This document shows positions 5,280 to 33,714 of a DNA stretch of 64,000 nt, piece by piece (position 1 is the stretch's first letter; every line of letters starts with the position of its first letter). The position numbers were made by a program, and so were the translations under genes. Source of the stretch: Ilex aquifolium (taxonomy: Eukaryota > Streptophyta > Magnoliopsida > Aquifoliales > Aquifoliaceae); the NCBI GenBank assembly GCA_951799425.1, contig OX637398.1, forward strand, positions 16,092,270-16,156,269, read 5' to 3'. Under the pieces are notes generated by a model. It made no database searches, was not told where the DNA came from, and saw only the letters and a program-made list of their open reading frames with translations.

Positions 5280-5288
5280 TATTTAAAT
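5280..5288. repeat. Left 9-bp target site duplication of the MULE
   Basis: TATTTAAAT, identical to 22672-22680 and directly abutting the left terminal inverted repeat. Confidence 0.9.
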
Positions 5289-5345
5289 GAGGAATTTAGA
5301 AGCCGGTACAATTTTTTAGACTTACTTAGGTAAAAGTACAAAACA
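5289..5345 (+). repeat. Left terminal inverted repeat of the MULE
   Basis: Matches the reverse complement of 22615-22671. The first 24 bases align without a gap but with several mismatches; the next about 30 (around TTTTAGACTTA and AAAAGT) are nearly identical. Confidence 0.85.
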
Positions 5346-5752
5346 AAAACTTATTTAGGTAGAAGTGCATTTTTAAAAAAAATACCGATATTGCAATTGG
5401 TAAATAGTAAAAATATGGTAACCGATGGAATTCCTTCCGTTTTTTTTGGCAAAAATCGTGTAATGGGAGGGAAAAGAGGGGATTTAATTATCTTCTTCCA
5501 TCTTCTTCGGCAGAGTGTTTGTATGTCTATTGGAATGCCAGACCTGCCATACTTGTGAGTGTTCTTCCTCTCTGTAAAAAATGGTTTCAATTTAGTGTTC
5601 ATCGTCTAACAAGAGGAATACTACATACTGTTTATGGTCTTTAAACAAGAGCATTGCGAGGTTTCTGAATCATCTCCTCAAATTTCTGAATCGTCGCAAA
5701 CGGATAATCAACTGCGAATCGTCTCCGACAAATTCTTCTCCGAAAATTGCAG

Positions 5753-6509
5753 GTGATATTACTGTTTGGGTTTTTTTTTTCCGTTCATTAATTTTCTCTT
5801 GCTCCACAATCTGTGTTGTTTGATTTTGGGGAAAAAACCCTATTTTAGTGAATTTATAATAACAAATTACAGGTTTATAATTTACGATTAAGTAACCTAA
5901 TTTGTTCAAAAATTGTGTAACTGTTTTAAGTAACTATTTAGAATGACAAATAACAAACTGTTAATATTCAAAAATTAATGGTTGATATTGTTTTGACCTT
6001 ACAATGCAGTTCCAAATTTTATTGCTGCTTACATAATATTCAAATGTTTTTTAGTATCTTATTTGTGATTACAAATTACAAACAGTTAATATTCAAAGAT
6101 GAATGATTGTAACTGTATTGAGTAACTATCTTCTGTATGAAATCATTCAACCCTGATATATGTTATTGGTAACTGTATATATTATATGTATATTAGTTGC
6201 GTTAAGTATATGTTACTAAATGGTTTAATGTTCAAAAAATGTATGATTGTAACTGTATTGAGAAACTAATCTGTGTATTAAGTATTACATTCTTATATAG
6301 GATATTGGTAACTGTACTTAGTATCTGTACTTGAGATACTATGTACTTGAGATACTATGTGCAATTGAGTAATGATGCTTTTACAAAATTAGGTGAATTT
6401 CATTCTAACGAATTAAACAGTTACCAATTTATGGAATAATGGTTAGTGTAAATATAGATATACCATATATACTTGTATGAAACCATAACGCTATTGATTC
6501 ATTAAACAG
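5753..6509 (+). other. Probable 5'-UTR intron of the Ulp1-like gene
   Basis: A donor GCAG|GTGATA at 5753 and an acceptor TTAAACAG at 6502-6509 lie just before the ATG at 6513. Inside, the motif TAACTGT and its variants recur. An intron in the 5' leader is inferred from splice-site quality and the lack of coding sequence. Confidence 0.5.
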
Positions 6510-8119
6510 GTCATGGCGAACAAAAAAGCTTCAAAACACAGACCTGTAGTAAGGGGCAGCAAAAAAATTCCACAGCAAGAGTCACAAGCAACAAATACAA
6601 AGGTCACTGGTGCAAAATACAACCCTCAATACAGATCAAATATGCTTGCCATCATCAGGGCAATTGAAGAGCTTCATTTAAATGATTATCACAAGACATC
6701 GTTGCAAAAGACCCTCTTCTGGCTGCTTTTTGAATGTATAATTGACCAAACATTGGACAAAACATGGTGCCGTAAAAGTGACAGCTGCATTCTTGAAATT
6801 TTATTATGTTTCAATTCAGATACTTCAAGATTCAATATCGGGAGCAAAAAATTGAGACTGCGACCTAATGATGTCACCCTAATATTTGGGATACAAGATG
6901 GGTGTGAAAAGATTGATTGGACGATACATGGAAAATCAGTTACACCCTTTACAGAATGATGGTTCAAGAAGGATCGGAGGTTAACAACTACGTTGATAAG
7001 AAGCAAGCTGAAACATGCGTCCGAATTGGACAGTGAGAATGGGTACGATGACTTGGCTAGATTATTATGTTTGTATCTGTTGGCAACATTTTTTTTCCCA
7101 GTAACGGGAAACACAATGAGTTGGGGGTTGGTACCATATATTGAAAAGTTGGATGCATGTAGAAAATACAATTGCTCCGAAGCTATAACTGATACTCTAA
7201 TTTCATCATTGAAGAAGAAGAAGGAAACGCCATCAGCTATAAATGGATGCGTCCTCCTAATACCAGTAAGTGTCTTAATATAAGTAATATATAAATTTGA
7301 GTCTTTAAATTACTTTGATAGCACCAAATATGATATAATAATCATAATGTTGTATGTTGCAGTACTGGCTGTGTGAACACACCTCCATGTTAACTCCCAG
7401 CACTGAGAGGCCATTTCCTCGGTTCCTCAAATGGAACTTACCAAGTCTGAATAGGGCAATCAAGCAAAAATGTTTGGCAAATATCATGGCAAATGAGGTA
7501 AGTCTCAGTTCATAAATTATAATCCCTATAACTTGTAACTGTTTTGAAAAATGCAACTATGTCAATGTTTGTTAATTAAATTTATTTTATCCTTAGATCA
7601 TGAAGCAAAGACTGAAGAGAACTAAGGAAGAGAGAATGTTTATATCATCGAAAAAGAAGGCAGGAAAAGAATTGAAAAAAGCAATGGAGCAAGAGTTAGA
7701 TGACAATGACAAAGTTGACATAGAAGAAAATGGTGTTGGAAAGACATCAATTGGTGATGATGAATGTTCAAATGAAATGGGACAATTGGTTGACTTAGTT
7801 GAAGTTAATGTTACCCAACCAATAGAAATACAGTCAAGAGATCAAGAGGTTTGGATTGACAGTGAAAATGACAACATTATGAGAGAGAGAGATGAATTTC
7901 AAAAGATTGTTGCTGAGTTGATGGTGAAGGACAAATTAAACCAAGAAAAGATTGCCGAGTTGGCCAATGAGAATGAAGCGTTGAAAAGACACATGCAAGA
8001 CAGTGTTGACATGGGGCATCACAAGGTATATTTAAATTAACCGTTATAATGTATATGGGAATCTGTTGCATAGTTTTGTGAGTCATTTTATGTGTGTATC
8101 CATAGTATACCTGAATGGT

Positions 8120-8290
8120 GTAACTGTTTCAGTATAGTTAGTTACAAGTTCAGCCCTGTGTGGTATAACTGTATTTGAATTAACATGTTAACTGTTTCAG
8201 CCCTGTGTTGTATAACTGTATTTGGATTAACATGTTAACTGTTTCAGCCCTGTGTTGTATAACTGTATTTGGATTAACATGTTACATGTT
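8120..8290 (+). repeat. 47-bp tandem repeat in the third coding intron
   Basis: About 2.7 copies of a unit containing AACTGTTTCAGCCCTGTG followed by GGATTAACATGTT, in which TAACTGT occurs twice per unit. Confidence 0.75.
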
Positions 8291-8399
8291 ACTAATTTAT
8301 GAGGAAATATATTTAACAATGTGGTGCAATTATTTTTTAACATATTTGAGTAACTGTTTTGAATTCTTAACTGTTTGTCTTGGTATAACTATTGTACTA

Positions 8400-8710
8400 T
8401 CTAATACAGTGTAACGTTATGGTGTAACTGATTTGTCCAGATGCATTAGATAACAAAGTTGATCCAAAACAGTTACACCATATATGAATCTCCATATTTG
8501 AGCTGCAGTTGGATGTTTTGGGAATGAATAGACAATTGGTTGACTTAGTTGAAGTTAATGTCTGTATCTATACTATACCTGAATGGTGTAACTGTGTCTG
8601 TATACTTTGTTACATGTTAAAGTGCATCTATTTTGTGCTCATGTTTGAGTGACTGTTTCATCCCTATGTAACTTATATGGTGTAATTGCTTTTTGGTTTT
8701 TGTTATGTAA
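8400..8710 (+). repeat. Diverged intronic copy of the 262-bp MULE repeat
   Basis: The stretch from the paired GTTACACCATATAT motif through TTGGATGTTTTGGGAATGAA and ACAATTGGTTGACTTAGTTG matches the repeat units at 17554-18578. It lies in the third coding intron, far from the array but inside the same MULE. Confidence 0.7.
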
Positions 8711-8953
8711 CTGTTTTTGTTAATTGTGTAATGAATTGGTTAACTATTATTTTCATAATGAGTTCATGCAGCAAGATGAAGTGCAAGGGGACATTCCATC
8801 CGATTATAATGTTCAATCATCAAAGATTACAGTTTCAATGTTACAAATATTTGATAGAGACACAAAAATCGTCCAACTTGAGACATTGGTTCATACGATG
8901 CATAATGAAAAAGACGCAATTGAGGCCGAAAATGTGACATTAAAAGAGAATGT

Positions 8954-10267
8954 TGATTAACCATCAAAAGTGCTATTTTATTACATTTAATAATTGGTTA
9001 ATTGCATATTATTTGTGATTAAATGTGTTAAATTCCTTGATTTTCTAATTTGATACTTTTTCTAGTTGTTTGGTTTATTTTGCAGGTAAATTGGTTGATT
9101 TAAAGTAATAATGGATAATGCAAGTGAAGCAATCACTAGAGGAAGAATCACAATTGATAAGGATTGAAGAGTCAAGATTGGGATAGGAAGACTTGAAGAT
9201 AAATCAGAATTTTAATCCTTATAAGAGTTTAAGTGAGAAGAAAACTCATTTAAAGTTGGATTAGAAAAGTTTCCTAAAAGATAAGGATTTGACACGTCTT
9301 CCGTATTTCATTAATAACTTTTGACTCCGATATCGGATTGACCTGATTTTTGTGGGGTTGGAAATAAGACTTCAAGGGCTACAGAAGTGTATTTCACGAA
9401 AATTTCGTGATTCAGTCTCTAAATATGCGAAATTCAAGCTCGAAGTCTGGACAGATTTTGTACCCGCGGGCCCCAAGATTTATGCACGGGATTTAACCTT
9501 ACAAGACATCTTTTTGGGAAAGGAATTCCTTCCAACCTGTACTTATGATTTATTTTACTATAAATAAGGACTCTCATCTAGTGAGAGAAAAAAGGAATTA
9601 GATTAGGATTTATTTTATATATTCTTTTTTCCATCTTTTTATTTCGTCATGTCTGGCTAGAAGGCTAAGCTAGGGCTAGGGAAGAACCTCTCAACGGAGT
9701 ACGGTATTTTTATTGACTCTTGTACTTAAGGATTTATGTTATTGTGTTAATTTAATCCTTAATATTTTAGCAAAGTGTTTATGCTGTATAAACTCTTGAG
9801 TTGTTGTGCCACGTACATCAATTTCTTGATTTTCTCTGCGTGTAAATCACTGGTTATTCCATGCTGGAAGGATTAACATTATTTCATAAAATAATATGAT
9901 TGAATGATTATTCAGGTTCCTGGTAGTCTTTTGATTATAACCATTGGATTTATCACTTGATTTGTTAATTGGTTTAACTGACATTTAATTCCTCTTTCAA
10001 GTCAAGCTTTGAGTATTTAACTATTATTGTATGAAGTTGAGAGGGAGTACCTGATGCTCTAGTATTTTATTTATTACTGTTTTAATTATCAAAAATCACT
10101 TTTCTCCAATCAACAACTTTCTAAACAAATCCTTTTCCGTTCAAATTACTTTTGTTGTTTGTGTGATTGTTCCTTGTTACAATTTCTCGTGGGATCGACC
10201 TCGGACTTCCGAGAATATATTACTTTGCTCAACCTGCGCTTGGGTTTACACTTTTAAAGTTGAAGCA
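8954..10267 (+). mobile_element. 5' LTR of the Athila-like element
   Basis: TGATTAACC start, GAAGCA end, 1314 bp, nearly identical to 13319-14632. TATA box TATAAATA at 9559-9566. Upstream of it are the palindrome TCCGATATCGGA (9326-9337) and an inverted repeat CACGAAA-A-TTTCGTG. The open frame 9352-9567 lies upstream of the TATA box and is probably fortuitous. Confidence 0.9.
9559..9566 (+). promoter_or_regulatory. LTR TATA box of the Athila-like element
   Basis: TATAAATAAGGACTC, repeated at 13924-13931 in the 3' LTR. The transcribed leader would start about 30 bases downstream. Confidence 0.6.
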
Positions 10268-10273
10268 AGTTTT

Positions 10274-10291
10274 TGGCGCCGTTGCCGGGGA
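10274..10291 (+). promoter_or_regulatory. Primer-binding site, tRNA-Asp type
   Basis: TGGCGCCGTTGCCGGGGA is complementary to the 3' end of plant tRNA-Asp. It is the primer site used by Athila-related elements. It starts 6 bases after the LTR end. Confidence 0.85.
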
Positions 10292-10482
10292 ATTGAAAGA
10301 CAAGGAGCCATTACATCATTGAGGTTTGCTTGATTTGAGATTCGTCACAGATCCGGTAATCTCGTTCCTTTTGTTTTTTATTTATTGTTAATTATTTGTT
10401 TCATTTTTCCTCAGGTTAGATATTTCATAATTTTTATTTTTATATTTTATATTTCTTTTAATGTGGTGTGAAGATTTCCCCG

Positions 10483-11256
10483 ATGGAGGAACTGTGCGTG
10501 TTTTGTGATGTGTATGGGCATCCCATTGAGGTTTGCCCTTTAATTCCAACTGCTCGAAAAATTTTGAGGAATGTGACAATTGTCTTACCTAATTCTTCTC
10601 AACCTTACCCCGACCATTGTTTTGAAACTTTTTATCCCAATTTTGGTTGGGGGAATGAACATTATCAGTTACCTATATATGTCACATCTCCACAAGACCC
10701 TCCCCAATATCCACCCTACCATGACCTACAAGAAGAGAATTTGGAGAATATTCTTAACGAATTTATGCAAAGCCAACTAGCTTTCAATGCCCAAACAAGT
10801 CAAGATATTAAAGAGATACAAGATATACTCAATATATTGATACAAAAACAAGAGGTTAAAAATAGTCAATATGAGAGTGATTCTTTTCCTGAACTACAAA
10901 CTGAGGATGAATCCATTAATACTCTTGATAGTGAAGAATTTAGTGACATTATTATTCCACAAGAGGCTAATGAGCCCAAAGACCTTTCATTATCAACAAG
11001 TAGTAATGACATTCACATATCTAATCTTAGTGAGGGTATGAAAGTTGAGTTGTGTGTTGTAATTGATAAAAATCTATTTTCTATCTCAATGTTAGATTTG
11101 CATAAAAATGTATATATCTCCCTTTTCTTGCATACTCTAATAATATCTTGGGTATATGAGTGGATAGTTCGATTAAAAGAGTTGCTTCGACACCACATTT
11201 TTAATCCAATAAAATTGAATGGTCGCATATTCAAATATGACTTTAAGCCGAATTGA
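10483..11256 (+). CDS. Gag-like remnant ORF with an N-terminal zinc knuckle
   Basis: A 257-residue frame starting at the first ATG (10483). The start MEELCVFCDVYGHPIEVC fits a CX2CX4HX4C zinc knuckle, the nucleic-acid-binding motif of Gag. It is followed by a PNFGWGNE-type motif and a predicted helical stretch (ENLENILNEFMQSQLAF). In Athila-type gag the knuckle also precedes a HPNFSW-like motif and such a helix, so this looks like the C-terminal half of gag with its N-terminal domain deleted. The last 80 residues contain a hydrophobic stretch and I do not recognise them. The frame is intact in this young copy, but whether it is translated is unknown. Confidence 0.6.
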   Translation: MEELCVFCDVYGHPIEVCPLIPTARKILRNVTIVLPNSSQPYPDHCFETFYPNFGWGNEHYQLPIYVTSPQDPPQYPPYHDLQEENLENILNEFMQSQLAFNAQTSQDIKEIQDILNILIQKQEVKNSQYESDSFPELQTEDESINTLDSEEFSDIIIPQEANEPKDLSLSTSSNDIHISNLSEGMKVELCVVIDKNLFSISMLDLHKNVYISLFLHTLIISWVYEWIVRLKELLRHHIFNPIKLNGRIFKYDFKPN

Positions 11257-11483
11257 GTGTGAGCTTTTATTTTTATTTGTACATAGTAGTTAGATTTTAT
11301 TTTATTTTATTTTTAATTTTAGTTTTGTTTCTATTTGATTTAATTTATAGTTTTGTCAAGTCTTTTATTTTTAGGTTTTTGAGTTGTTGCAGCACCAGGT
11401 ATTCCTATCTCTTTGATCTTTATTCATTATTTTTACTGAGCAATAAGATATTTATTTTTACATTGAGGACAATGTTGGATTTA

Positions 11484-11493
11484 GGTTGGGGGG
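11484..11493 (+). other. Internal polypurine-tract-like sequence
   Basis: GGTTGGGGGG preceded by ACATTGAGGACAATG, strongly resembling the true polypurine tract at 13306-13318. It lies about 1.8 kb before the 3' LTR. It may be an internal (central) tract or a decayed former 3' boundary. Confidence 0.4.
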
Positions 11494-12214
11494 TATGAGT
11501 ATGCCTTGTGTTGTGAAAATTCCTAGTTTATTTTTTTTAGTTTATTTACTTTGCTAAAAAAAAAATATAAAAAAAAATTGTTGGTTATTAAATATTTAAA
11601 TAACATTTTTATGCATAATTTGATACCACAATATAGAAATAATTTGCTTAACTTTAAATTTGTAACTGTTTAAGCATTATATAGAACTTTATTCTATATT
11701 TTTGTATTTCATATCATGTTCTTATAAAAACTCAAAATTTGTGCACTTTAGACTTTACCAAGTTGAAAATTTATTAGGTATTTTACCTTGAGAACTTGAA
11801 ACATATAGTGGAGATGCATAAAAACCCTAGTGAGTTTTGATCCAATCTTTCTTGAAGGGTTATTTACATTTACTCAATAAAAAATATTTTTATTCAGCTA
11901 TTCTCCTTCAATAGTCTCATTATTTTTGTTTTGGTTAACACCAATATTGTGAATGATTGCTTGACTTTGAATTATTTGCATGGGAAGTGTGTTATCAAAA
12001 GCTCTTGAGATATGATTTTAGGCCATCTTTGATTATTTGAGCCTAAACCTTATTCTTTGAATATTATTATCCCTAAAAGCCATGATTGAGCCTTTGAAGC
12101 AAAAATTTATTTCTTATACCCAACATATAATAACCAAGCCAATGAAAAAAATAATATCTTTTACCCTTGGTTATCCTGAGATTGAATTTTTATTGTTTAT
12201 GTAATTTGGGAGAT

Positions 12215-12440
12215 GTTGGTTAAGAAAAGAAAAGAAAAAAAAGAGTTTTACATACTTGTGAATATTTGCATTAGATGTCTTGCTGAAAAAAAAGAAGAAA
12301 AGAAAAAAAAAAAAAAAGTTGAAAAAAAAAAAGAAAGACAATATGTCTAGCAGTGAAAAAAACAGATTGCAAAAAAAAAAAGAGAAAAAGAGAAAAAATA
12401 GCAAGCATGTGTTTGAAAAGAAAAAAAATATGAGCAAGTG
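12215..12440 (+). repeat. Adenine-rich AAAAG tract in the 3' noncoding region
   Basis: Long runs of A interrupted by G (AAAAGAAAAAAAAG-like). The minus-strand frame here is only low-complexity Phe/Leu. Similar A-rich spacers are common between the ORF and 3' LTR of Athila-related elements. Confidence 0.5.
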
Positions 12441-13305
12441 ATGTAAATTGTGCTTCTAAAGGATGGAGAGTGAAAGGCTATGGAAATAAGTTTGGTTGTG
12501 TAATGTACATGTTCTCTCGGGATAGTCTTTTGAATTCCTGAATATCCTTCGTTTCAAAACCCTAATCCCAAGGCCCCATTACAACCTTAAATAAAGACCT
12601 ATTTGATCTCAAGAGTGTATTGATGGATGCATGACTTGTGTGAATAAGGAAGAAAATGGTGATTATTTATTTATTGTGTGTTGATTTCCTTTCATGAGAT
12701 TATGTCAAATCAATTTCTTTTGGATTACAATTATTTTAATGGAACATGTGAGCATTATTTTGTTTTGACTTAAATATCTTCTTCTCACATGTGATATTTG
12801 AGGGAATAGTCACTATAATCTGAGAGAATCTTTTATGAGTGAATTATCTAGTGAGATTTGGCATTGAGACGAATAGTTGATAGTTGTAGAGGTGATTACC
12901 AGATAAATTACTGACTTGGTATAGTTAATTCACACTACACACGAGTTTATATGAGAATATGATAAGTGCATACATTTATATAGCGCATAGTTCTATATTT
13001 TGTTTTGCATGTGCTTATAAAGAGTTTGCATCTTAGAATTTTTAGATTGTGGTAGCAATTTGTGTTATAAAATTATTATTTAGATATTTGATTACAGGTT
13101 GATGTTTGTGGGTATCATCTCTGGAAACCTTCACGAGACTATACTCGTCCACTAGGGGGAACCTAGGGGTTTAAAGGCTTGTTGCATATGCTAAATGCAA
13201 TCGTGAGTCCTACGAAAGTGGATTTGTATTTTATTTTATTAGGTTATTTTATTTTTTAGTTTTTAGATTTTGTGATACATGTATTACTAGGGACTAGTAA
13301 TATTC

Positions 13306-13318
13306 AGGTTGGGGGGTG
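13306..13318 (+). promoter_or_regulatory. Polypurine tract of the Athila-like element
   Basis: AGGTTGGGGGGTG directly before the 3' LTR start at 13319. It primes plus-strand DNA synthesis. Confidence 0.8.
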
Positions 13319-14632
13319 TGATTAACCATCAAAAGTGCTATTTTATTATATTTAATAATTGGTTAATTGCATATTATTTGTGATTAAATGTGTTAAATTC
13401 CTTGATTTTCTAATTTGATATTTTTTCTAGTTGTTTGGTTTATTTTGCAGGTAAATTGGTTGATTTAAAGTAATAATGGATAATGCAAGTGAAGCAATCA
13501 CTAGAGGAAGAATCACAATTGATAAGGATTGAAGAGTCAAGATTGGGATAGGAAGACTTGAAGATAAATCAGAATTTTAATCCTTATAAGAGTTTAAGTG
13601 AGAAGAAAACTCATTTAAAGTTGGATTAGGAAAGTTTCATAAAAGATAAGGATTTGACACGTTTTCAGTATTTCATTCATAACTTTTGACTCCGATATCG
13701 GATTGACCTGATTTTTGTGGGGTTGGAAAGAATACTTCAAGGGCTACAGAAGTGTATTTCACGAAAATTTCGTGATTCAGTCTCTAAATATGCGAAATTC
13801 AAGCTCGAAGTCTGGACAGATTTTGTACCCGCGGGCCCCAAGATTTATGCACGGGATTTAACCTTACAAGACATCTTTTTGGGAAAGGAATTCCTTCCAA
13901 CCTGTACTTATGATTTATTTTACTATAAATAAGGACTCTCATCTAGTGAGAGAAAAAAGGAATTAGATTAGGATTTATTTTATATATTCTTTTTTCCATC
14001 TTTTTATTTCGTCATGTCTGGCTAGAAGGCTAAGCTAGGGCTAGGGGAGAACCTCTCAACGGAGTACGGTATTTTTATTGACTCTTGTACTTAAGGATTT
14101 ATGTTATTGTGTTAATTTAATCCTTAATATTTTAGCAAAGTGTTTATGCTGTATAAACTCTTGAGTTGTTGTGCCACATACATCAATTGCTTGATTTTCC
14201 CTGCGTGTAAATCACTGGTTATTCCATGCTGGAAGGATTAACATTATTTCATAAAATAATATGATTGAATGATTATTCAGGTTCCTGGTAGTCTTTTGAT
14301 TATAACCATTGGATTTATCACTTGATTTGTTAATTGGTTTAACTGACATTTAATTCCTCTTTCAAGTCAAGCTTTGAGTCTTTAACTATTATTGTATGAA
14401 GTTGAGAGGGAGTACCTGATGCTCTAGTATTTTATTTATTACTGTTTTAATTATCAAAAATCACTTTTCTCCAATCAACAACTTTCTAAACAAATCCTTT
14501 TCCGTTCAAATTACTTTTGTTGTTTGTGTGATTGTTCCTTGTTACAATTCCTCGTGGGATCGACCTCGGACTTCCGAGAATATATTACTTTGCTCAACCT
14601 GCGCTTGGGTTTACACTTTTAAAGTTGAAGCA
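13319..14632 (+). mobile_element. 3' LTR of the Athila-like element
   Basis: 1314 bp, the same length as the 5' LTR. It is followed by the target duplication AATGT, after which the Ulp1-like exon 4 resumes in frame. Confidence 0.92.
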
Positions 14633-15844
14633 AATGTCATAGTATTGGAAGCTGAAAATGCAGAATTAATAGATCAAATAAATGAGTTGACAGTGCACAA
14701 CATCACTCAGAATCTGAATACCATCAATCCTAATGACAGTGCAAAAATTGGTCAAACTTCAATGGTTCGAAAGCTGAAGACCAAAGAGAGAAAGAGAAAA
14801 ATACTTGAGGATTACGAGTATAGCAAAAAGAAAAAGGGCAAGGGACACATTGAGGGGTCACAGTCAATTATCACCCTCAAGGATGAAGCAGACAAGATCA
14901 GTGCAGCGAAAGAACAAGCGAAAATCGATAAGGAAATTGCAAGGTTGTGGAACATTTGTCAGAAAACGAATCGGCCTATCTATGATCAATTACAACAAAT
15001 CAATGATACAGAAGGACCAACGTACGTATATTATATATTCTAACATTTATGTATTATGCTACTAGTTTTTCATTGAAATACATGAATTTACTCACTATAC
15101 TTTTATTAAAAAATATGAACTTACCTTATATGACTGTGCTCTGACCATATAGGACACCCATTTGGTCCGGTGTTTCAATTGGAAAGTACATAAATGTTGT
15201 AGACGCATTGAAACTGGTTGGAGGATGTGAACTGTACAACAGTGTACGTATTAAACTTAAATCTTTTTTTGTCCACATCACAAAATTGTCAACTTAAAAT
15301 GTTTTCATGTAATCTATTTGCATGCACCAAGTACTGTTTTGAACGTTCTTTTATACATTGTAACAGATTATAGATTGCTGGGGAGATATGCTGCTTGAAC
15401 TTGATGCTTACAACGAGCAGTTAACGTATAAAAAACGTTGCTTCTTCTTCAACAGTCTATGTTTGGTACATTAAAATTTATTGACATTTTTTTTTTAATT
15501 TCAGTATTGTTATATTTCAATTTAATTGTCCATAAATTGGGTTATGTGTAGACATTCGTTACAAAAAACATGAATCTATGCAAAGACCAAATTGACAAAA
15601 ACCTCATTTTGGGAAGAGATCGTCGATTCCTTGTATTTCCCATGAATTCCAATGGTCAAAACAACCTTGTGGAACCTTGGCATTGGACATTGTTAGTGTT
15701 GGATACTGACGCTGGATCTTAGACACACTACAATTCTAACAAACCACGAACAGTGAGGAGGGACGTGTGGCTGGATGATTCAAGAGTATTGGTAAAAAAC
15801 AACTGAATCCCATTGTATTTGTTTGAGTTTTGCAGTATCATAGC

Positions 15845-17118
15845 TGCTTCAACTTTAGAATTGATCACCCAAGTGCAGGTTATGCGAAGTAATATAATAC
15901 TCGGAAGTCCGAGGTCGAACCACAAGGAATTGTAACAAGGAACAATCACACAAACAATAAAAGTAATTTAAAAGGAAAAAGAATAAATTTGGTTTTAAAA
16001 CAATACTAAAGCATCGGGTACCCCCTCTCAACTTCATACAATAATAGTTAAAGACTCAAAGCTTGACTTGAAACAGGAATTAAATGTCAGTTAATCCGAT
16101 TAACAAATCAAGTGATAAATCCAAAGGTTATAATCAAAAGACTACCAGGAACCTGAATAATCATTCAATCATATTATTTTATGAAATAATGTTAATCCTT
16201 CCAGCGTGGAATAACCAGTGATTTACACGCAGGGAAACTCAAGCAATCGATGTACGTGGCACAACAACTCAGGAGTCTATACAGCATAAACACTTTGCTA
16301 AAAGATTAGGGATTAAATTAACACAATAACATAAATCCTTAAGTACAAGAGTCAATAAAAATACCGTACTCCGTCGAGAGGTTTTCCCCTAGCCCTAGCT
16401 TAGCCTTTTAGCCAGACATGACGAACTAAAAATAAAAAGATGGAAAAAAGAATAAATAAAATAAATCCTAATCTAATTCCCCCTCTCTCAATAGATGAGA
16501 GCCTCTATTTATAAGAAAATAAATCCTAAATACAGGTTGAAAGGAATTCCTTTCCCAAAAAGATGTCTTGTAAGGTTAAATCCCGTGCATAAATCTTGGG
16601 CCCCGCGGATACAAAATCTGTCCAGACTTCGAACTTGAATTTCGCATATTTAGAGACTGAATCACGAAATTTTCGTGAAATAAACTTCTGTAGCCCTTGA
16701 AGTCTTCTTTCCAACCCCACAAAAATCAGGTCAATCCGATATCGGAGTCAAAAGTTATGAATGAAATACTGAAGACGTGTCAAATCCTTATCTTTTAGGA
16801 AATTTTCCTAATCCAACTTTAAATGAGTTTTCTTCTCACTTAAACTCTTGTAAGGATTAAAATTCTGATTTATCTTCAAGTCTTCCTATCCCAATCTTGA
16901 CTCTTCAATCCTTATCAATTGTGATTCTTCCTCTAGTGATTGTTTCACTTGCATTATCCATTATTACTTTAAATCAACCAATTTACCTGCAAAATAAACC
17001 AAACAGCTAGAAAAAGTATCAAACTAGAAAATCAAGGAATTTAACACATTTAATCACAAATAATATGCAATTAACCAATTATTAAATATAATAAGATATC
17101 ACTTTTGATGGTTAATCA
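15845..17118 (-). mobile_element. Solo LTR of the same Athila-like family, opposite orientation
   Basis: The reverse complement starts TGATTAACC and aligns along its whole length with the LTRs of 8954-14632, including the TCCGATATCGGA palindrome. It is flanked by the 5-bp duplication ATAGC (15840-15844 and 17119-17123). At 1274 bp it has small deletions, and it is more diverged than the two LTRs of the full element, so it is probably older. No internal sequence remains, which indicates LTR-LTR recombination. It lies in the seventh coding intron of the Ulp1-like gene. Confidence 0.9.
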
Positions 17119-17553
17119 ATAGCTAGCACTAATATCTGTCATTGAATAACATGCAGAAAGATTATGTTGAAAAGAAAATTAGTGAAATGCAGGCAGCCGA
17201 TGGAATTGACATTGACCCCTCAGACAATGTTCTTCCACTGACAGCGTATGAGAAAATGCCACAACAAATGGCAGATTCGTACGTATTATTTTTTAACGTT
17301 AATTCATTCAAAATCAATGAAATGTTAGTAACAAAACCTATAATGCAGGGTCGATTGTGGACTGTTCGTTTGCTACATAATGCGACAGCTTGCAAATGAC
17401 GAAGACATACCAGAAAAGTTGACAGCTGCACAAGTGAAAAAATTCCGGACGGAAATAATGGAAATGTTCTTAAACCATTCCAATTCTTGTACAGTAAATG
17501 ATTTCCATGAAAGGATGAAATTGAAAGAAATATATGAATAGTACTATTTGTAA

Positions 17554-18578
17554 TTGGATGTTTTGGGAATGAAATGAGACTATTGGTTGACTTAGTTGAA
17601 GTTAATATGTGTGTCTATAATATACCTGGATGGAGTAACTGTTTAAGTATACTTCTTTACATGTTAAAGTGCAGCTATTTGGTGCACAGGCTTTGAGTAA
17701 CTGTTTCAGCTCTGTGTACCCTTTATGTTGTAACTGTTTTGTCCACCTGCAGTATATAACAAAGGTACTTACAAAACAGCTACACCATATATCAATAGTC
17801 CTATTTGAGATGTAATTGGATGTTTTGGGAATGAAATGAGACTATTGGTTGACTTAGTTGAAGTTTATGTGTGTGTATATACTATAACTGAATGGTGTAA
17901 CTGTTTCAGTACACTTCTTTACATGTTAAAGTGCAGCTATTTGGTGTAGCTGCTTTGAGTAGCTGTTTCAGCTCTGTGTACCATTTATGGTGTAACTCTT
18001 GTGTCCAACTGCATTATATAACAAAGTTACCTACAAAACAGCTACACCATATAGCCATAGTCCTATTTGAGATGTAGTTGGATGTTTTGGGATTGAAATG
18101 AGACAATTGGTTGACTTAGTTGTATTTAATGTGTGTATATATAATATACCTGGATGGAGTAACTGTTTCAGTATACTTCTTTACATGTTAAAGTGCATCT
18201 ATTTGGTGCACAGGCTTTGAGTAACTGTTTCAGCTCTGTGTACCATTTATGATGTAACTGTTTTGTCCACCTGCATTATAAAACAAAGTTACCTACAAAA
18301 CAGTTACATCATATATCGATGGTCCTATTTGAGATGTAGTTGGATGTTTTGGGATTGAAATGAGCCAATTGGTTGACTTAGTTGTATTTAATGTGTGTAT
18401 ATATAATATACCTGGATGGAGTAACTGTTTCAGAATACTTCTTTACATGTTAAAGTGCATCTATTTGGTGCACAGGCTTTGAGTAACTGTTTCAGCTCTG
18501 TGTACCATTTATGGTGTAACTGTTTTGTCCACCAGCAGTATATAACAAAAGTTACCTACAAAACAGCTACACAATATA
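17554..18578 (+). repeat. 262-bp tandem repeat, nearly four copies
   Basis: TTGGATGTTTTGGGA recurs at 17554, 17816, 18078 and 18340, exactly 262 bases apart each time. The array begins 13 bases after the stop codon of the Ulp1-like gene. Each unit has several TAACTGT or ACAGTTA motifs and a segment, ATTGGTTGACTTAGTTG, also found in exon 3 of that gene. Confidence 0.92.
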
Positions 18579-18901
18579 TCAATACTTTAGATGCATTGTG
18601 TTGAATAAATGTAACAGTGACCACATCCCATACTTTAGATGCAATGTGTTGAATACTTTAGATGCACGTGAACAGTGATCACATCCCATAATTCCTACAG
18701 GTATCCCTGATATACACATTGATTTCCCAATTTTGATTTTCCATTCATCCCCCAAAATTTAATCAACATACAAAAATTTGCACCCATACTATAACATCCA
18801 TATTAACATATCCATAAAAGAACTATTACTAACATAAAACAGCAACTGAAAAAAATAAATATTCAAATAAAAAAATTATTAGTTTAAAATAGTAATGCCA
18901 A

Positions 18902-21421
18902 TCACAAAGGTTCTTTACAAGATTTCTTGTTGTGACTACCTAACCGTCCACACCGACCACATCGAATTTGTCTAATAAGTTCTCCCCTTGACCTAATTCT
19001 ACATTTTTTGGGTCGGCCCGGCTGCTTCTTAGTTGATGGTGGCAAAATATCAGCTTCGTCAACATTGAAGTCCGAACGACCAAGAGTAGGGATTGGGAGT
19101 ATAGGTTGAGCGTATGATTTCTTGTATGTACTAACATGATAATAATAATCAACAAACTCATTCATATTTCTCTCACTTTTACGTATTGCCGCTACTGCAT
19201 GAGAACAAGGAAACCCATTAATCTGCCATTGAAAGCATGAACACGTGTCATTCTGAATGTCGACTGAAACAGAAGGATTTGAATTAACTTCATACACATC
19301 ATGGTTCGAAACACTAACAGCCCAAGACCTGCTTTTGGCAAATGCAACCTGTAATCTTGAATCCATCTCAGGACATAAATTTTCATTCCATGTACAGGCA
19401 GTGATCATCCTAGCACCAATTTGATTCATAATTTGACACCGAATAGTGTCAACCATGCTCGTAATGGGTAAATGTCGTGCTTTCATAATCCACGAATTGA
19501 ACGACTCCACTGCATTAGAGTTCATCTCGCCATAACGTCTACCTTTAAAGTATGCATTTGCCCAATGCTCGTATGGAAGATTATCCAAAAAATGTTTCAC
19601 AATGTAACCACCCTCACTTCGAAAAGCTTCAATTTTTTGGGTAAACAGTGAAATGGTGGGGGCATAAGCACACTCACACAACAACACCACCATATGCTCC
19701 CTAAATCCATTTGAATAACGACTACCACTGAACTTGTCCCGCAAGTTCGCCTTCAAGTGCTGCAAACAAAAAGCGTGGTGACACTTTGGAAAATCTTTGG
19801 CATTGCTTCCAACAAACCAACATTACGATCAGAGACAAATGTAATGTCCCTATTCAGATCCAAAATCTCTGACAATTGTTGTAAGAACCATAACCAATTT
19901 GCCTCATTTTCCGAGTCAACAATCACAAACGCTAGTGGATATAATCCTGAAATACAAAAGTAAATGTATATAGTTAATTGAAATATTAAAACGATTGCCT
20001 ACAGATTCACATCAGTGCAAAAAAAATACACCAACCTGTTATATTAAAATAGTTACAATAAACACATACAATTATACTATTTAAGTACCGCAAAAATATA
20101 TACATAATACAGTTACAGTATATAGTTAAAAACAAAATATTCATACACACCATTTTATAATGGGTTTGTAAGGTGTGGGTACAATTTTATAGACTTATTT
20201 AGGCAAAAGTGTACCGCAAACCACATCATAGAGTACCTATAACAAACCACACACTTAGAAAAAAAAAAAAGACCAAATACAACAAAGAAAATACAAAAGC
20301 GACATTTAAATAAAAAAGGTTAAAAGAATTATACCCTGATTACCATCCTTCCCAATTGCCGAAAGAATGCATCCTTTGTACTTTCCTTTAATGAATGTCC
20401 CATCAATGAATAAAATTGGACGACAATAATTGAAACCATCAATACAAGCCTTGAAGGACACAAACAATCTATGTAAACGGTTAGACTCATTATCACAATG
20501 CAAAACTATATGGCTCTCAGGGTTTGTATTACTCGCAGCATCCACATACCAACGTAACTGTTTGTACGATAACGTATGATCCCCAAAAAGTATACCCTTT
20601 GCTTTTTCCACCCTCATCCAAGTTTGGTGATAAGATATGTCAAGACCATAAGATGTAAGGAAATCACTAACCACGTCAACTGGACGAGTGGACGTCTGAT
20701 CACGGACATTATCAACAATCAAATCTCCAATCAAATTACAAGATAATCTCTTATTCTTTGTGGTACGCAACGCTACTCCACATGTGTGTTCATTATTCAT
20801 TTTCCGTATGTAAAAGAAACCATTAAGTTTTTGAATCGTAGCATTTACATGTCATCCACACCCTTTATCATACTTCGAAGCGCACTCAGCAATAACCCTA
20901 TCCCTACAATTCCTCACATAATTAAACTTGAACCCAATCTCTATTGAGTATTTGCACAGAGCTTTCCTGAAATGTGTGACACCACCTTCAAACCTTTGGC
21001 CTACACGGCTTATTTCATTTGACCACCCAGCTGTTAACAATACTTTTTCCGTATGTGAGCAAAAGCTAGGGAGCAAATCATCATCACACTCAACCCCATC
21101 GCCGCAAATATGAACATCTTCAAGCAAATTATCATCAACCACCACACGTGACTCTTTATCTTGCCTAGTTACCATGACCTCAGCATGATTAACATTTATC
21201 ATGCGCATTATATCAAACATATTACGCAAGTCCTCATCATTTTGCAAACAACATTTTGGGTGCCCTGGAATAGAATATGACATGACAACAGACAAATTAC
21301 CCAATTCCTCCCATTTTCCGCAAAGCCTACCATAAATGAAATCAAATGTTGCACGAGCAAAACATCTGATAATAAAGGTGTCAACATCATATTTGCATAC
21401 AAGTAGCACTATTCCCTCCAT
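18902..21421 (-). pseudogene. MuDR-type MULE transposase, two coding exons, disrupted
   Basis: Exon 1 is 21421-20335 and exon 2 is 19946-18902, joined across a GT/AG intron (20334-19947), about 710 codons originally. Exon 1 has an N-terminal domain, then the MuDR DNA-binding region (FKFNYVRNCRD, CASKYDKGC), then the catalytic core beginning FIDGTFIKG (Asp codon 20402-20404). Exon 2 has VSDRN (Asp codon 19828-19830) and NAVESFN (Glu codon 19505-19507), completing the DDE triad. A SWIM zinc finger (CSCFQWQINGFPCSH) and a C-terminal zinc knuckle (CGRCGRLGSHNKKSC) follow. Lesions: TGA at 20852-20854 where Trp is expected, and a one-base frameshift between about 19784 and 19800. An acceptor at 21425 suggests an upstream 5'-UTR exon. 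Confidence 0.88.
20162..20212 (+). repeat. Internal copy of the MULE terminal repeat, inside the transposase intron
   Basis: About 50 bases containing AGGTGTGGGTACAATTTTAT and ACTTATTTAGGCAAAAGTG, closely matching the outer terminal repeats, in the orientation of the left end. It is closer in sequence to the right terminal repeat than the left one is. Confidence 0.8.
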
Positions 21422-21447
21422 TTCCTGATTACGACAAGGAAAAAATG

Positions 21448-21812
21448 AATGACAATGTATCAATACAAAAAAAAAAAAACCGAAAACAGTCATACAAAAC
21501 AGTTACATTAAATGAAAATACAAATGCCTGAATTAATTAGTGTCATACTGGAAGAAAAACATGAAACAAAAAATAGTTACAATATACAGACTCTACCAAA
21601 ATTGATATTGGCTGAAACATTGCATAAAGGGGAATGACAATGTATCAATGCAAAAAAAAAAAAAAAACGAAAACAGTCATACAAAATAGTTACATTAAAA
21701 AAAAATACAAATGCCTGAATTAATTAGTGTCATACTGGAAGAAAAACATAAAACAAAAAATAGTTACAATATACAGGCTCTACCAAAATTGATATTGGCT
21801 TAAACATTGCAT
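21448..21812 (+). repeat. 185-bp tandem duplication upstream of the transposase
   Basis: Two consecutive copies starting AATGACAATGTATCAAT at 21448 and 21633, each with an A-run and ACAGTTAC/TAGTTAC motifs. They sit in the presumed promoter or 5'-UTR intron of the transposase. Confidence 0.85.
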
Positions 21813-22614
21813 AAAAGATCATTTACAATTAAACATAACTCTGATAAAAAAACAGTTACACCCATTAACACAAAAATAATTTTTTGTTTCCTTCATTCCA
21901 ACAACGAAAAAAAAAATCAAATCGAAACAGTTACACTACTTATAATCAAGGCAGAACTTTTCTCCAATTCAATTCATCAGGGGACATACATAAAACAAGA
22001 TCAAACATAGGAATTCCCCAACAAAAATGACCGAATAAAAGAATACATAAAATTATTAACAACTAACCTCCAAGACGATGAACATAGGAATTTCCAAAAA
22101 AAAAAACAAGTAAAATCAGAAATATAATTATTATGTGTATATGAAAAAATATACACCCATTAACAACAGTTACACCCATTAGAATCAAAGTAGTTTTTTT
22201 TCCCAATCATTTCATCAGCGAAGAAAAAAAAAAAAATAGTGGACGTCTGATAAAAAAAAACCGAATTTTTTCAATCGTTTAAACGAACAAACCTTCAAAC
22301 GATACCGATGATTGATGATTGCAATTGTTTTTACGAACAAATTCTTCTCCGGAAAAGTTTTGCAATTCTGCTGTTGAATACACTCTTACAGCCGTATATT
22401 GTCCAACCGTTTATTCCATAAAAAACTGCTCATTCAAAATTTGAAAAATAAAGATAACAATTATGGAATCTTTAGATATTTGTTTCCTCAAATAACTATC
22501 AAATATTGCTGCATAAATTAAGAAAGGGTGTTTAGGTAAAAAAGATTTCATTTGAATTTTGTACCTAAACCAAAAAAGTTTTATAAAAATTGTACTTAAA
22601 TGAATAAACAACTT

Positions 22615-22671
22615 ATCCATACACTTTTGCCTAAATAAGTCTAAAAAATTGTACCCACACCTAAAAAACTC
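22615..22671 (-). repeat. Right terminal inverted repeat of the MULE
   Basis: Inverted partner of 5289-5345. It ends at 22671, directly before the duplication TATTTAAAT. Confidence 0.88.
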
Positions 22672-22680
22672 TATTTAAAT
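22672..22680. repeat. Right 9-bp target site duplication of the MULE
   Basis: TATTTAAAT, identical to 5280-5288. Confidence 0.9.
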
Positions 22681-27780: not shown

Positions 27781-28965
27781 TGTTGGTTGTGGTATTCCAA
27801 ATATAGTAAAATCACTTATTGAAATTTCTGATTTGAAACATGTAAAGTATAACAAAACAGTAACAATCAAATGCGAAACAGTTACACAGAAACAGTCTTA
27901 AACGAAAGAGTTATACAAAAGAGTTACACGAAAGAGTTAAATGTAATTGTTTGTATAACCAATATAAAAAACTAACCCGATTGCAGAACAAGAATTGTTA
28001 TTGAACTTTAAGTAGATCAATGCTAGTGTTTGACACTATGTCTTTAAGACAGATTTCGCCCCCACACACGGTGCTTATGGAATATCGAGCGTCTGCCTCC
28101 CAAGATACAATGATCTTAACACGAGCAGAAGTAGCACTCCAATCTACTCGTCCAGCGAATCAAAAATTGTGTTGTGTACTCTCCAAATGCAGACTGACTT
28201 AATGCCGAAAATGCAATGCACTAATGTCTGCCTTAATGGACTGATGAATGAATTGAATGAATAAATCAGAATGGTAATGATCCTGGGTATTTATAGACAC
28301 GTTGGTGACTTTCCGGATAGCCACCATTACTAAAAGACACAACCCAGTATGAAAAGACATAACTCAATGCAAGGCAGAAAACACCAATTGTAATTGTTCT
28401 GTATGAACAGTCACAACTCATTCGGACTGGAATAAACCTAAACCAGTGCAATCCAACGGGTACCGAAAATTAATTTCGGGTCAGAAATTCTCACCCAATT
28501 AATTAAATGAATTTTCTCCAAAAATATAGGGCTTGGTCTAAACCACACCCGAGCCCGGGTCGTGGAGTGGCGGCGGGCGGCGCGCGTGTGTGGTAGAACC
28601 GAAGACATGTAGATGCTCGTTCCGCTCATAAAACTGTGGTACCCCTTGGGGCCCAATCCCTTAGAGCAAACTTAGCCTATATATGCCCATGTAGAACTTC
28701 TTCCTCAACCAATGTGGGATTGGTGTCAAATCCCACATTGCACATCCTTTATTTTCACATTTCAAGAGGGTCACTTTTGAGCCTATTTTCTCATTCATTT
28801 CTTACTCGATTTGAGCAAGTGAATATACTACATTATTCTCCTCATTGAGTAGAATATGGACCCACGAAAATTTGTTCGAAACAAAGAACGGGTCCTACTT
28901 TAATTTAGGCTCAAAGTCGACCAAAAATTTAGTTTTTACTCTTAAAAATCTGTTTTGGTCCAACA
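27781..28965 (-). mobile_element. 3' LTR of the copia element
   Basis: 1185 bp. A TATA box CTATAAATACC lies on the minus strand near 28290-28300. It holds about 54 bp around 28385-28438 that the 5' LTR lacks, and an extra short repeat of AACGAAAGAGTTA type near 27900. Confidence 0.9.
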
Positions 28966-28976
28966 ATCCCCCACAT
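28966..28976 (-). promoter_or_regulatory. Polypurine tract of the copia element
   Basis: TGTGGGGGAT on the minus strand directly precedes the 3' LTR. Confidence 0.75.
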
Positions 28977-29543
28977 GAATGGAAAATTGGTTGTTAGTAT
29001 GCAAATGATAATGCTGACACACTATAGAGAGTACATCTTTGGAAAGATCGTGCATCGAGATAGGTAGCTTTTGGACTTGAACCTTCCCTAGTGAAAACCT
29101 ATCGAACTTACCGACTAAATAGTGAACATGATGTCTTGAACTATTTCAGCTGTTTGATAAATCAGATCGAATAGACTTCACACAGTCTCTTTTTTAACAC
29201 AATTGGTTCTCATGATTGTGTTCATTTTGGCCCTGAACAACTCCTGGTTTTCATGAGTGCTTTAGAGAATTCAGCCTTTATAAATTCTCACAGAAGCGGC
29301 CCCTTCACACCCATATAGGTGACTCTTATTAGGAATATCCTGTAATATCTCACTTGGATTTTTCAATATATAAGAGTCATTAAAAGCATAGCTTACCCTA
29401 ATAAACTCTGCAGGCAGCACTAGGTTATCATAGGAATAGGTAGGAGATATTATTTCCTTAGTGCTTCTTTTGAACCACGCATAATTCGGTTGTCCCTTTG
29501 AATCTAGATCCTGGAATCTCCAATCAACTAGGTTGGGTTGTCA

Positions 29544-30992
29544 TTAAGGTGACTCTTGTGTCATAGGCTTTAGTCTCATTCCCCTCGATGTGCAATTTAT
29601 TTGCTCTCTCGTCAATTCTTTAGTAAACGGATCCGCTAGATTATCCTTTGATTTTATATAATCAATAGAAATAATCTCATTTGAGAGCAATTGTCTAACG
29701 GTATTATGTCTATGACGTATATGTCTAAACTTACTATTATACATGTCACTCTGTGCCCTACCAATTGCAGATTGGCTATCACAATGTATACAAATTGCTG
29801 ACACAGGTTTAGGCCATATTGGAATATCCTCTAAAAATTGACGAAGCCACTCAGCTTCCTCTCCTGCTTTATCTAAAGCAATAAATTCAGATTCCATTGT
29901 GGATCTGGCAATACACGTTTACTTAGAGGATTTCCAAGATACAGCTGCACCACCAAATGTAAAAACATAACCACTTGTGGATTTTGTATCCTTTATATCA
30001 GATATCCAGTTTGCATCACTATACCCTTCAAGCACAGCTGTATATCTTGTATAGTGCAATCCATAATTCAGGGTATATCTTAAGTATCTAAGAACTCTGA
30101 TAATTGTCTTCCAATGGTCTACTCTCGGGTTACTCGTATATCTACTCAATTTACTAACTGAGTATGTTATATATGGTCTAGTGCAGTTCATGACATACAT
30201 TAGACTGTCAATGATACGAGAGTATTCCAATTGTGATATGCTTTGACCAGTATTTTTAGACAAATGAAGATTTATATCAACTGGTGTTCTAGCAATGCTG
30301 CTTTCATATTTGTCGAACTTTTCAAGTATTTTCTCAATATAATGTGATTGAGATAATATAAGTCCATCAGATGTTCTAGAAATTTTAATTCCTAATATAA
30401 CATCTGCAACACCCAAATCCTTCATGTCAAATTTACTAGACAACATTTTCTTGGTAGCTATAATAATATTATTATTACTACCTAAAATAAGCATATCATC
30501 TACATATAGGCAACCAATGACATATACATTATTTGTGTCTTTAACCTAGACACATTTATCACATTCATTAATTGTGAAACCATTTGATATCATTACCTTG
30601 TCAAATTTCTCATGCCATTATTTTGGTGCTTGCTTTAAACCTAAAAGTGATTTAACAAATCTACACACTTTCTTCTCTTGTCCCGGAGAAATGAACCCTT
30701 CAGGTTGGTCCATATAAATTTTCTCATTTAAGTCACTATTTAGGAAAGTTGTTTTCACATCCATTTGGTGTATCTCAAGATTATGCAATGCTGCAATAGC
30801 TATGAGCATACAAATAGATGTTATTCTCGTGACAGGAGAATATGTATCAAAGTAATCAAGACCTTCCTTTTGTTTGTAACCTTTAGCTACAAGTCTAGCC
30901 TTGCACTTATCAATTGATCCATCAGTTTTTATTTTCCTTTTGAAAATCCATTTACACCCCAATGGTTTACTCCCTGGAGGAAGATCTACCAA
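29544..30992 (-). pseudogene. Copia reverse transcriptase and RNase H
   Basis: Three minus-strand pieces. 30992-30618 opens the RT with CKWIFKRK, KARLVAKGY and MDVKTTFLN. 30494-29919 holds the catalytic YVDDMLIL, then [10 protein letters not shown] and the connection region with SDANW. 29897-29544 is RNase H, with MESEFIAL and CDSQSAIG. Breaks occur at about 30617, 30545-30495 and 29918. The YVDD box is intact. The enzyme would copy the element RNA to DNA, but this copy cannot be made as one protein. Confidence 0.9.
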
Positions 30993-31145
30993 CTCTCAGG
31001 TATGATTTTGCATGATGGATTCAATTTCACTGTTTACAGCTTCTTTCCACATAGGTGCTTCAGGAGTGGACATCGCTTCATTAAAGATTTGAGGCTCATT
31101 TTCTAATAAATATATTAGAAAATCTGGACCATAGGACTTGAAAGT

Positions 31146-32408
31146 TCATGGCCTCTTACTGCGTCTAAGTGCCTCTTCACTTTCTTCATTTATAGACTCA
31201 TGGTCTATATTACTAGTCACATTATCATGAGTTCTTTTAAGAGAACTCTCATCACATGCATTTTTACTAGGAAAAATATTTTCAAAGAATGATGTATTTC
31301 TTGACTCAATGATTGTATTAACATGTATATCATGAATATCAGATTTATGCACTAGAAAACGATATGCACTGCTATTTATTGCATAACCAATAAATATACA
31401 ATCAATAGTCTTAGGTCCTATTTTAATCCTTTTGGGAATAGGAACCATCACCTTAGCTAAACACCCCCACACTTTTAAATATTTGTAGGAAGGACTCCGA
31501 CCTTTCCATAATTCATAAGGGGTTTTGTCTAACTTCTTGTGGGGTAATTTATTTAAAATATAGTTTGCTGAAAGTAACGCTTCTCCCCACAAGTTCTGAG
31601 GTAATCCCGAACTAATCAACATGGCATTCATCATCTCTTTCAATGTTCTATTTTTACGTTCAGCAATCCCATTTTGCTGAGGTGTATAAGGCACAGAAAT
31701 CTGGTGAATAATACCATGTTCTTGACAGAACCTATTAAAAGGTGCATCATATTCACCACCTCGATCACTTCTTATTACCTTAATCTTTTTGTCAAGTTGA
31801 TTCTCAACCTCATTCTTATAATGCATAAATTTTTTCAATGCTTCATCTTTACTCCTGAGCAAATATACATAACAATATCTTGTACAATCATCAATAAAAA
31901 TAACAAAGTACTTCTTTCCATCTCTAGTTTGAACATATTTCAAATCACATGTATCACTATGAATTAACTCTAGAGGTTCAGTACTTCTTTCAATATTATG
32001 AAATGATGCTCTTGTTAATTTTGATTCAACACATGTCTCACATTTATGATTTGCATCAATATTGAATTTAGGCAACAATTCTAAATTCATTAATTTACGC
32101 ATAGTATCAAAATTAACATGTCATAATCTATCATGTCATACATTGGAAGACTCAAGCATATAAGCAGAAGATGTGTTCTTATTATTAAAATTTGATATAA
32201 TTGTCATTACATTCATCTTAAAGAGTCCATCGCTCATATATCTCTTGCCTACATAAATTCCACTCTTGGTGAGTACAAATTTTTCGGACTCAAAAACCAA
32301 CCTAAAACCCTTCTTACTCAACAACGATCTAGACACAAGATTCTTTCGAATTTCTAGAACATGTAACACATCGTTGAGAGTAAGTTCTTTTCCATAAGTC
32401 ATCTTCAA
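31146..32408 (-). pseudogene. Copia GAG-pre-integrase and integrase
   Basis: The frame 32408-32136 covers the link after protease. After two stops near 32117-32135, the frame 32102-31146 has the zinc-binding CETC pair, then the integrase core: HSDTCDL, VIFIDDCTRY, RSDRGGEYD and NGIAERKNRT, which supply the DDE residues. It ends in a Ser- and Asn-rich linker and a stop at 31146, where RT should continue. Catalytic residues look intact; the frame does not. Confidence 0.9.
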
Positions 32409-32417
32409 TATAACCTT

Positions 32418-32675: not shown

Positions 32676-32690
32676 TTGTGCTTTACGGCT

Positions 32691-33530: not shown

Positions 33531-33714
33531 TTCTGATAAACACATATTACAAACTATTCAAATTAGGAAAACAGTAACAGTTTTCAAAGCAAGTTATTAA
33601 AACAGAGACAATAAATGTTACTGTTCAATGTCACTGTTTTGAAATTACTATTTTATCGTTTCTGTATGGTGTCACTGTTTGGTGTAACATGTATCGAAAA
33701 ATCTGTCTTAAAAT

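Follow-up and report, generated by a model that had tools for sequence, protein, structure and literature searches.

Does the Ulp1-type protease gene found in a Mutator-like element (MULE) of holly belong to the element's own machinery, or is it a chance passenger? The question is raised by a 64,000-nucleotide stretch of the Ilex aquifolium genome (GenBank assembly GCA_951799425.1, contig OX637398.1, positions 16,092,270 to 16,156,269, forward strand), hereafter called the window, in which a MULE proper spans positions 5289-22671. An earlier account drawn from the letters of this stretch (the sequence-only reading) had described a 17.4-kb MULE with precise boundaries, a Ulp1-like gene and a transposase gene. 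The window copy is a decayed, pseudogenised member of a large two-gene MULE family, in which the Ulp1-type gene is under purifying selection and is not a chance passenger. The family also carries a conserved 8-bp word, ACAGTTAC (GTAACTGT), in its noncoding DNA. By analogy with known systems, we hold it rather probable that the Ulp1-type protein is a self-encoded, sequence-specific anti-silencing factor.

The pairing of the two genes was followed through the holly genome (800 Mb, 103 contigs). Match numbers are lower bounds, since 129 of 1268 candidates were scored for the C-terminal exon of the transposase and 150 of 438 for a piece of exon 1 of the Ulp1-type gene; a scored transposase match was counted as paired when a Ulp1-type match lay convergent to it no more than 20 kb away. 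Indeed, 45 of the 47 scored matches with at least 82% transposase identity are paired (window copy counted), as are 35/46 at 70-82% identity and 1/36 at 60-70%. These counts indicate that the Ulp1-type gene is a fixed component of one clade; beyond this clade the gene is absent, or is not among the scored matches. Full sequences were obtained for the best 20 of 44 close convergent relatives. The pooled ratio of nonsynonymous to synonymous substitution rates (dN/dS) across these 20 relatives is 0.40 for the Ulp1-type gene (codon bootstrap 0.33-0.49), with values of 0.34 for the N-terminus, 0.34 for the C48 region and 0.51 for the middle part. For the transposase it is 0.44 (0.36-0.52) with all 20 relatives and 0.25 (0.19-0.31) when three damaged copies are left out. 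The sequence-only reading had proposed a genome search with the termini and both genes, and many copies were found to have both ends and both genes.

No 8-mer of the window MULE is as enriched as the word ACAGTTAC, with 29 occurrences for 0.49 expected when the two long terminal repeat (LTR) insertions are excluded, and the same word ranks first in 20/20 relatives (27-38 copies in each fetched stretch, for about 0.5 expected). Both ends were detected in 16 of the 20 fetched relatives; the other four, in which an end went undetected partly because the fetched stretch stopped short, were omitted from the density and duplication counts. In these 16 relatives, the counts of ACAGTTAC are 491 for the noncoding element (90.3 kb; 5.4/kb), 15 for coding sequence (75.7 kb; 0.2/kb) and 1 for the flanks (25.3 kb; 0.04/kb). 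Most words read in the direction in which the gene on their side is transcribed (the Ulp1 side has 337 plus-strand and 72 minus-strand words, the transposase side 0 plus-strand and 82 minus-strand words), and the outer ~0.5 kb at both ends of the MULE are devoid of ACAGTTAC. The words are thus clustered and mainly co-oriented in noncoding parts and tandem repeats, which is the arrangement expected of a VANC-type system. Long noncoding repeat arrays had been reported by the sequence-only reading and are present, but the conserved word within them had been overlooked.

The words are also better preserved than the DNA around them. Outside the tandem array that lies between the gene ends, the words of one reference copy are intact in 211/254 comparisons (0.83), a level reached by 0/2000 random position sets, versus 0.48 for all noncoding 8-mers there; inside the array they are intact in 103/149 (0.69), versus a background of 0.38. 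Conservation at 16 of 19 sites exceeds that of the DNA immediately around them (Wilcoxon p 2.7e-5), and with three other reference copies the figures are 25/28, 24/27 and 29/36. The TAACT bases are 96-100% identical among copies, while the other positions within 25-35 bp are 70-98% identical. Since the copies share ancestry and may have undergone gene conversion, these p-values are to be taken as indicative.

Furthermore, the word changes between subfamilies, as judged from two full and three partial sister sequences. ACAGTTAC has a count of 0 in both full sister copies: the first has AGTGTAAC as its top word and the second AGAGAGAC, with AGAGTGAC and AGTGTCAC among the words that come next. 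Between the genes of the partial sisters are found ACAGTTAC with AAAGTTAC (89% transposase identity), CATGTAAC, AGTGTTAC and AGTGTAAC (73%), and AATGTCAC with several of its relatives (70%). The core GTNAC is enriched in 6/6 regions (window family and five sisters; z 4.0 to 7.6, with approximate coding masks for two sister copies) and is not enriched in nine other regions of the window (z -1.1 to 1.7). Four regions have A/T as its middle base, one has C/G and one has both, and the flanks of the words differ.

The features of the window copy on which these results bear are the following (window coordinates, strand, description, and basis where recorded):

5280..5288, no strand: target-site duplication, left copy, TATTTAAAT (sequence; empty sites)
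5289..5337, plus: left terminal inverted repeat, starting with GAGGAATTTAGAAGCCGGTAC (end search, relatives)
5917..6425, plus: region upstream of the Ulp1-type gene, repeated GTAACTGT words (word count)
6513..7265, plus: Ulp1-type exon 1, PMD/DUF1985-like N-terminus, TGA at 6957-6959 (relative alignment)
7363..7497, plus: Ulp1-type exon 2 (alignment)
7597..8025, plus: Ulp1-type exon 3 (alignment)
8026..8771, plus: Ulp1-type intron 3, GTAACTGT words, 47-bp tandem repeat at 8149-8284
8772..8953, plus: Ulp1-type exon 4, part 1, cut by an LTR retrotransposon (5' limit inferred from a relative)
8954..14632, plus: nested LTR retrotransposon (LTRs 8954-10267 and 13319-14632; duplication AATGT)
14633..15021, plus: Ulp1-type exon 4, part 2 (alignment)
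15153..15243, plus: Ulp1-type exon 5 (alignment)
15367..15465, plus: Ulp1-type exon 6 (alignment to 15463; donor from a relative)
15552..15791, plus: Ulp1-type exon 7, catalytic His region (WHW), TAG at 15720-15722 (alignment)
15845..17118, minus: nested inverted solo LTR in intron 7 of the Ulp1-type gene (duplication ATAGC)
17157..17278, plus: Ulp1-type exon 8, catalytic Gln region (PQQ) (alignment)
17349..17541, plus: Ulp1-type exon 9, catalytic Cys region (VDCG) to the stop codon (alignment)
17549..18584, plus: tandem array of four 262-bp units lying between the ends of the two genes, with many GTAACTGT words
18902..19946, minus: transposase exon 2, rest of the MULE domain, SWIM, CCHC-like knuckle (by eye), frameshift
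19947..20334, minus: transposase intron, holding a stray right terminus (alignment)
20335..21421, minus: transposase exon 1, MuDR DNA-binding domain, start of the MULE domain, TGA at 20852-20854
21447..22175, minus: region upstream of the transposase gene, minus-strand GTAACTGT words, 187-bp two-copy repeat
22623..22671, minus: right terminal inverted repeat (end search, relatives)
22672..22680, no strand: target-site duplication, right copy (sequence; relatives)

The two genes are both present and in opposed orientation, convergent as had been proposed. The transposase of a third relative matches the MULE (68.3 bits), DBD_Tnp_Mut (39.9 bits) and SWIM (33.2 bits) domains, all above cut-off, and the exon pieces of the window transposase also match MULE/MuDR domains; together with the 9-bp target-site duplication, these domains place the element in the Mutator superfamily. 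A Pack-MULE, that is, a captured fragment without transposase, is excluded by the transposase gene.

The precise boundaries of the earlier description stand, as does its perfect 9-bp duplication (TATTTAAAT, 5280-5288 and 22672-22680): a perfect duplication of at least 9 bp was found in 15/17 copies (16 relatives and the window) versus 3/272 mismatched flank pairs scored in the same manner. The terminal repeats had been called matching; they are present, but imperfect (79% over 56 bp). The left terminus begins with GGGGAATTTAG (GGGG) in 14/16 full relatives and with GAGG in the window copy, which ends in CTC where most relatives have CCC. End queries of 479 bp (left) and 483 bp (right) each gave 41 rows in the genome, window counted; 40/41 rows begin at query positions 1-14 on the left (boundary at position 8) and 40/41 at positions 1-25 on the right (boundary at position 12). 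When the window flanks were joined, they aligned unbroken over the junction at five other loci (C10:3875972, C16:7080365, C2:57123099, C19:18203064 and C8:4785124; 71-73% identity, 41 rows). These paralogous empty sites indicate that the MULE inserted into an older repeat, other copies of which are empty, and that both ends come from one insertion, rather than from different insertions as the sequence-only reading had envisaged as a counter-case. A stray copy of the right terminus lies inside the transposase intron (about 20160-20213), and a similar inverted terminus piece is present in at least 5 of the 20 fetched relatives. An alternative 2.5-kb element ending at this stray terminus (20154-20213) was considered and rejected, as its flanks have no common duplication (by eye).

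The size of 17.4 kb was inflated by two nested LTR insertions, without which the element measures ~10.4 kb; 15/16 full relatives are 9.7-10.7 kb long and one is 13.2 kb long. The LTRs of the nested retrotransposon (1314 bp) are identical at 1299/1314 positions (98.9%), and the solo LTR is about 94% like them; no polymerase-like open reading frame (ORF) was seen for this retrotransposon in the ORF list. The claims that all splice phases were consistent and that the copy could serve as a reference do not hold. Indeed, the Ulp1-type gene has two in-frame stops (6957-6959 and 15720-15722) and an exon 4 interrupted by the retrotransposon, and the frame of the transposase gene is interrupted by a stop at 20852-20854 and, in exon 2, by a frameshift; with both genes broken, the window copy is a poor reference element.

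In the relatives, the Ulp1-type protein is roughly 860-875 residues long. The gene of one relative has nine exons and 875 codons before the stop, two of which are themselves stops. An 862-residue protein from another relative matches Peptidase_C48 (28.0 bits, cut-off 20.7), and the catalytic His, Gln and Cys of this domain are kept in 20/20 relatives. The middle of the protein is probably a coiled-coil (by eye). A PDB sequence search with the C48 part gave weak matches only, the best being SENP8 (E 0.073). DUF1985-like matches were recorded at 35 places of the genome outside the listed family loci, 2/35 of them over the Pfam cut-off.

If the Ulp1-type protein is an anti-silencing factor, it, or its N-terminal domain, would bind the word where it is dense, namely in the upstream regions, the introns and the intergenic region. 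The bound protein would locally counteract host silencing, as VANC does for VANDAL MULEs, and the removal of SUMO or a related modifier from silencing factors may be the task of its C48 domain. This would allow the expression of copies whose proteins are intact, and any copy having both ends could be mobilised by the transposase. Tandem duplication would spread the word, and protein and word would diversify together between subfamilies.

Several observations weigh against this interpretation. The dN/dS values and the constraint on the words indicate function, and not which function. The N-terminal domain is faint: PMD is sub-threshold in the 862-residue protein (26.9 bits for a cut-off of 34.9) and in 10/13 exon-1 proteins, DUF1985 is sub-threshold in 12/13 exon-1 proteins (best E 0.0042) and gave no row for the full 862-residue protein in the domain profile search, and the exon-1 structure model was poor (mean pLDDT 54) and was not used. 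The spacing of the words gave no clear ~10.5-bp helical pattern in four lists, and their orientation looks mixed in one sister copy. The GTNAC core was picked after the words were seen, it ranks 1, 1, 2, 3, 5 and 11 among gapped cores in the six regions, and the top 8-mers lack it in 3/5 sister regions (AGAGAGAC, CCAATCAC and GACATTGA); for these reasons, GTNAC across the subfamilies is a hypothesis with support. Finally, the density of the word is not confined to the cognate and close families. Paired GTAACTGT words 10-40 bp apart occur at 1527 places genome-wide, versus 128 for the reversed pattern; among the first 100 of these places, 20 are within 9 kb of a listed family or relative match, and the other 80, which would include any family copies without recognisable genes, fall into at least four further repeat contexts. 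In the window itself, the direct repeats that flank a copia-like element (85-96% alike in blocks) both carry ACAGTTAC.

This density in other repeats keeps a host (MYB-like) site among the candidates, and the alternative that survives best, which we consider unlikely, is that the word is a host transcription factor site which several unrelated repeats have multiplied as an enhancer, with some other role for the Ulp1-type protein. The form CNGTTR/TAACTG, which is contained in ACAGTTAC, is a site of plant MYB factors. A host site would agree with the density of the word in the copia-flanking direct repeats and in short inverted-pair repeats, and with its position upstream and in introns, mostly in the orientation of transcription. 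However, the distant two-gene sisters use AGTGTAAC, CATGTAAC, AATGTCAC and AGAGTGAC/AGTGTCAC in the corresponding noncoding regions, words which to our knowledge are not MYB-like, and a self-encoded, changing binder fits these differences better than a host factor. The same observations could be joined in a more specific account, in which a VANC-like PMD/DUF1985-Ulp1 anti-silencer goes with words that vary around the palindromic GTNAC and is exploited by unrelated repeats, including LTR retrotransposons; taken as a whole, this account appears quite unlikely. Another reading, already disfavoured and in our view very unlikely, takes the array as a neutral tandem expansion and the Ulp1-type gene as a passenger taken up from the host (transduplication) and now in decay. 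It draws on the many broken copies of the family and on a 40-42-bp piece of exon 3 present in each 262-bp unit, which suggests that the array expanded from an exon-intron segment, but it is opposed by dN/dS values well below 1 for both genes, by the greater conservation of the words outside the array than of their surroundings and by the fixed gene order in 45/47 close matches. That the words are subterminal transposase-binding sites needed for excision is highly improbable: they are conserved and repeated, as are the subterminal motifs of other DNA transposons, but the nearest word lies 509-649 bp from the end in three reference copies and about 630 bp in a fourth, and the words extend through the introns and the intergenic region.

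Other repeats were recorded in passing. The copia-type retrotransposon mentioned above occupies 27781-34723 of the window, with integrase and reverse-transcriptase ORFs at 29919-33236 on the minus strand (by eye). Two direct repeats (39582-40488 and 51191-52182; 82-88% alike, ~11.6 kb apart), possibly LTRs, have GTAACTGT words at or just past their right ends. On contig C1, short repeats with opposed paired GTAACTGT words ~315 bp apart were seen more than once (e.g. 5987378 and 5987693). In brief, the window also contains minus-strand gag/protease-like ORFs with gypsy-type resemblance (1248-2943; by eye), an AT-rich region of ~2.4 kb with many degenerate ~21-bp and ~52-bp repeats, partly inverted (42227-44671), and a long near-palindromic hairpin whose nested arms are 80-89% complementary around a 14-bp centre (49139-49786).

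The system closest to that proposed for holly is the VANC anti-silencing of VANDAL MULEs, particularly those of the Ulp1-bearing Kaonashi/KIU type. Kaonashi elements were reportedly described by Hoen in 2006 as the Ulp1-bearing MULEs of Arabidopsis. In KI, the Ulp1-type gene is under purifying selection, with small-RNA targeting and pollen expression, and the holly gene shares the first of these traits (dN/dS 0.40). The sequence-only reading had compared the element with Kaonashi, and the comparison is sound: as in Kaonashi, a Ulp1 (C48) gene runs opposite to the transposase gene, the transposase is of MuDR type and the copy number is high. Unlike Kaonashi, which has been described as lacking terminal inverted repeats, the holly family has short imperfect ones. 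Kaonashi (KI/KIU) elements of Arabidopsis are presented as Ulp1-bearing VANDAL-type MULEs (PMC13317346, PMC2528002), ULP-bearing MULEs with terminal inverted repeats are known from melon (PMC2528002) and some VANDAL-grouped elements also have such repeats (PMC6446971). With MUDR, MUDRAVI2 and VANDAL MULEs, as they appear in the latter source, the holly family shares the 9-bp duplication, a SWIM transposase and an antisense PMD-like ORF (PMC6446971); unlike in those PMD-bearing MULEs, the PMD-like part is fused to a C48 protease in a nine-exon gene, and word arrays are documented.

With VANDAL21/VANC21 and VANDAL6/VANC6, the holly family has in common a second transposable element gene, co-oriented short words in introns, upstream regions and tandem repeats, and a change of these words between related families (PMC5735166, PMC10398659). 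The published VANC words, YAGTATTAY and AGTTGTCC/AGTTGTAC, lie in tandem repeats within introns and upstream of genes (PMC5735166), and they differ from those of the holly family. The VANC21 word is said in that source to be unique to VANDAL21 at high density, and the VANC6 words to be common to related VANDALs (PMC5735166), whereas the holly word is common to other repeats. Unlike the VANC systems as described, the holly family has a Ulp1 domain, a sub-threshold DUF1985 and a word that is dense in several repeat contexts, and the case made here is drawn from sequence. Sasaki et al. (2022, EMBO J) reportedly described systems of VANC type that arose in eudicots, have DUF1985, DUF287 and Ulp1 domains and change their motifs. 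In that case, the holly MULE family would be a further such system with new words. Ikeda et al. (2017) speculated that MULE-captured PMD proteins act in anti-silencing (PMC5418596), and what the Ulp1 domain does in such MULEs is described as unknown (PMC13317346). Among the open-access papers listed by the literature searches, no title or abstract opening concerned ACAGTTAC or GTNAC words in Ulp1-bearing MULEs, the words themselves not being search terms.

In summary, the holly family links a PMD/DUF1985-like and Ulp1 protein to DNA words that are conserved within it and change between subfamilies, and it provides both probes and proteins. The presence of the word in other repeats is either a clue that these repeats may freeload on the anti-silencer of a transposon, or evidence of a host factor.

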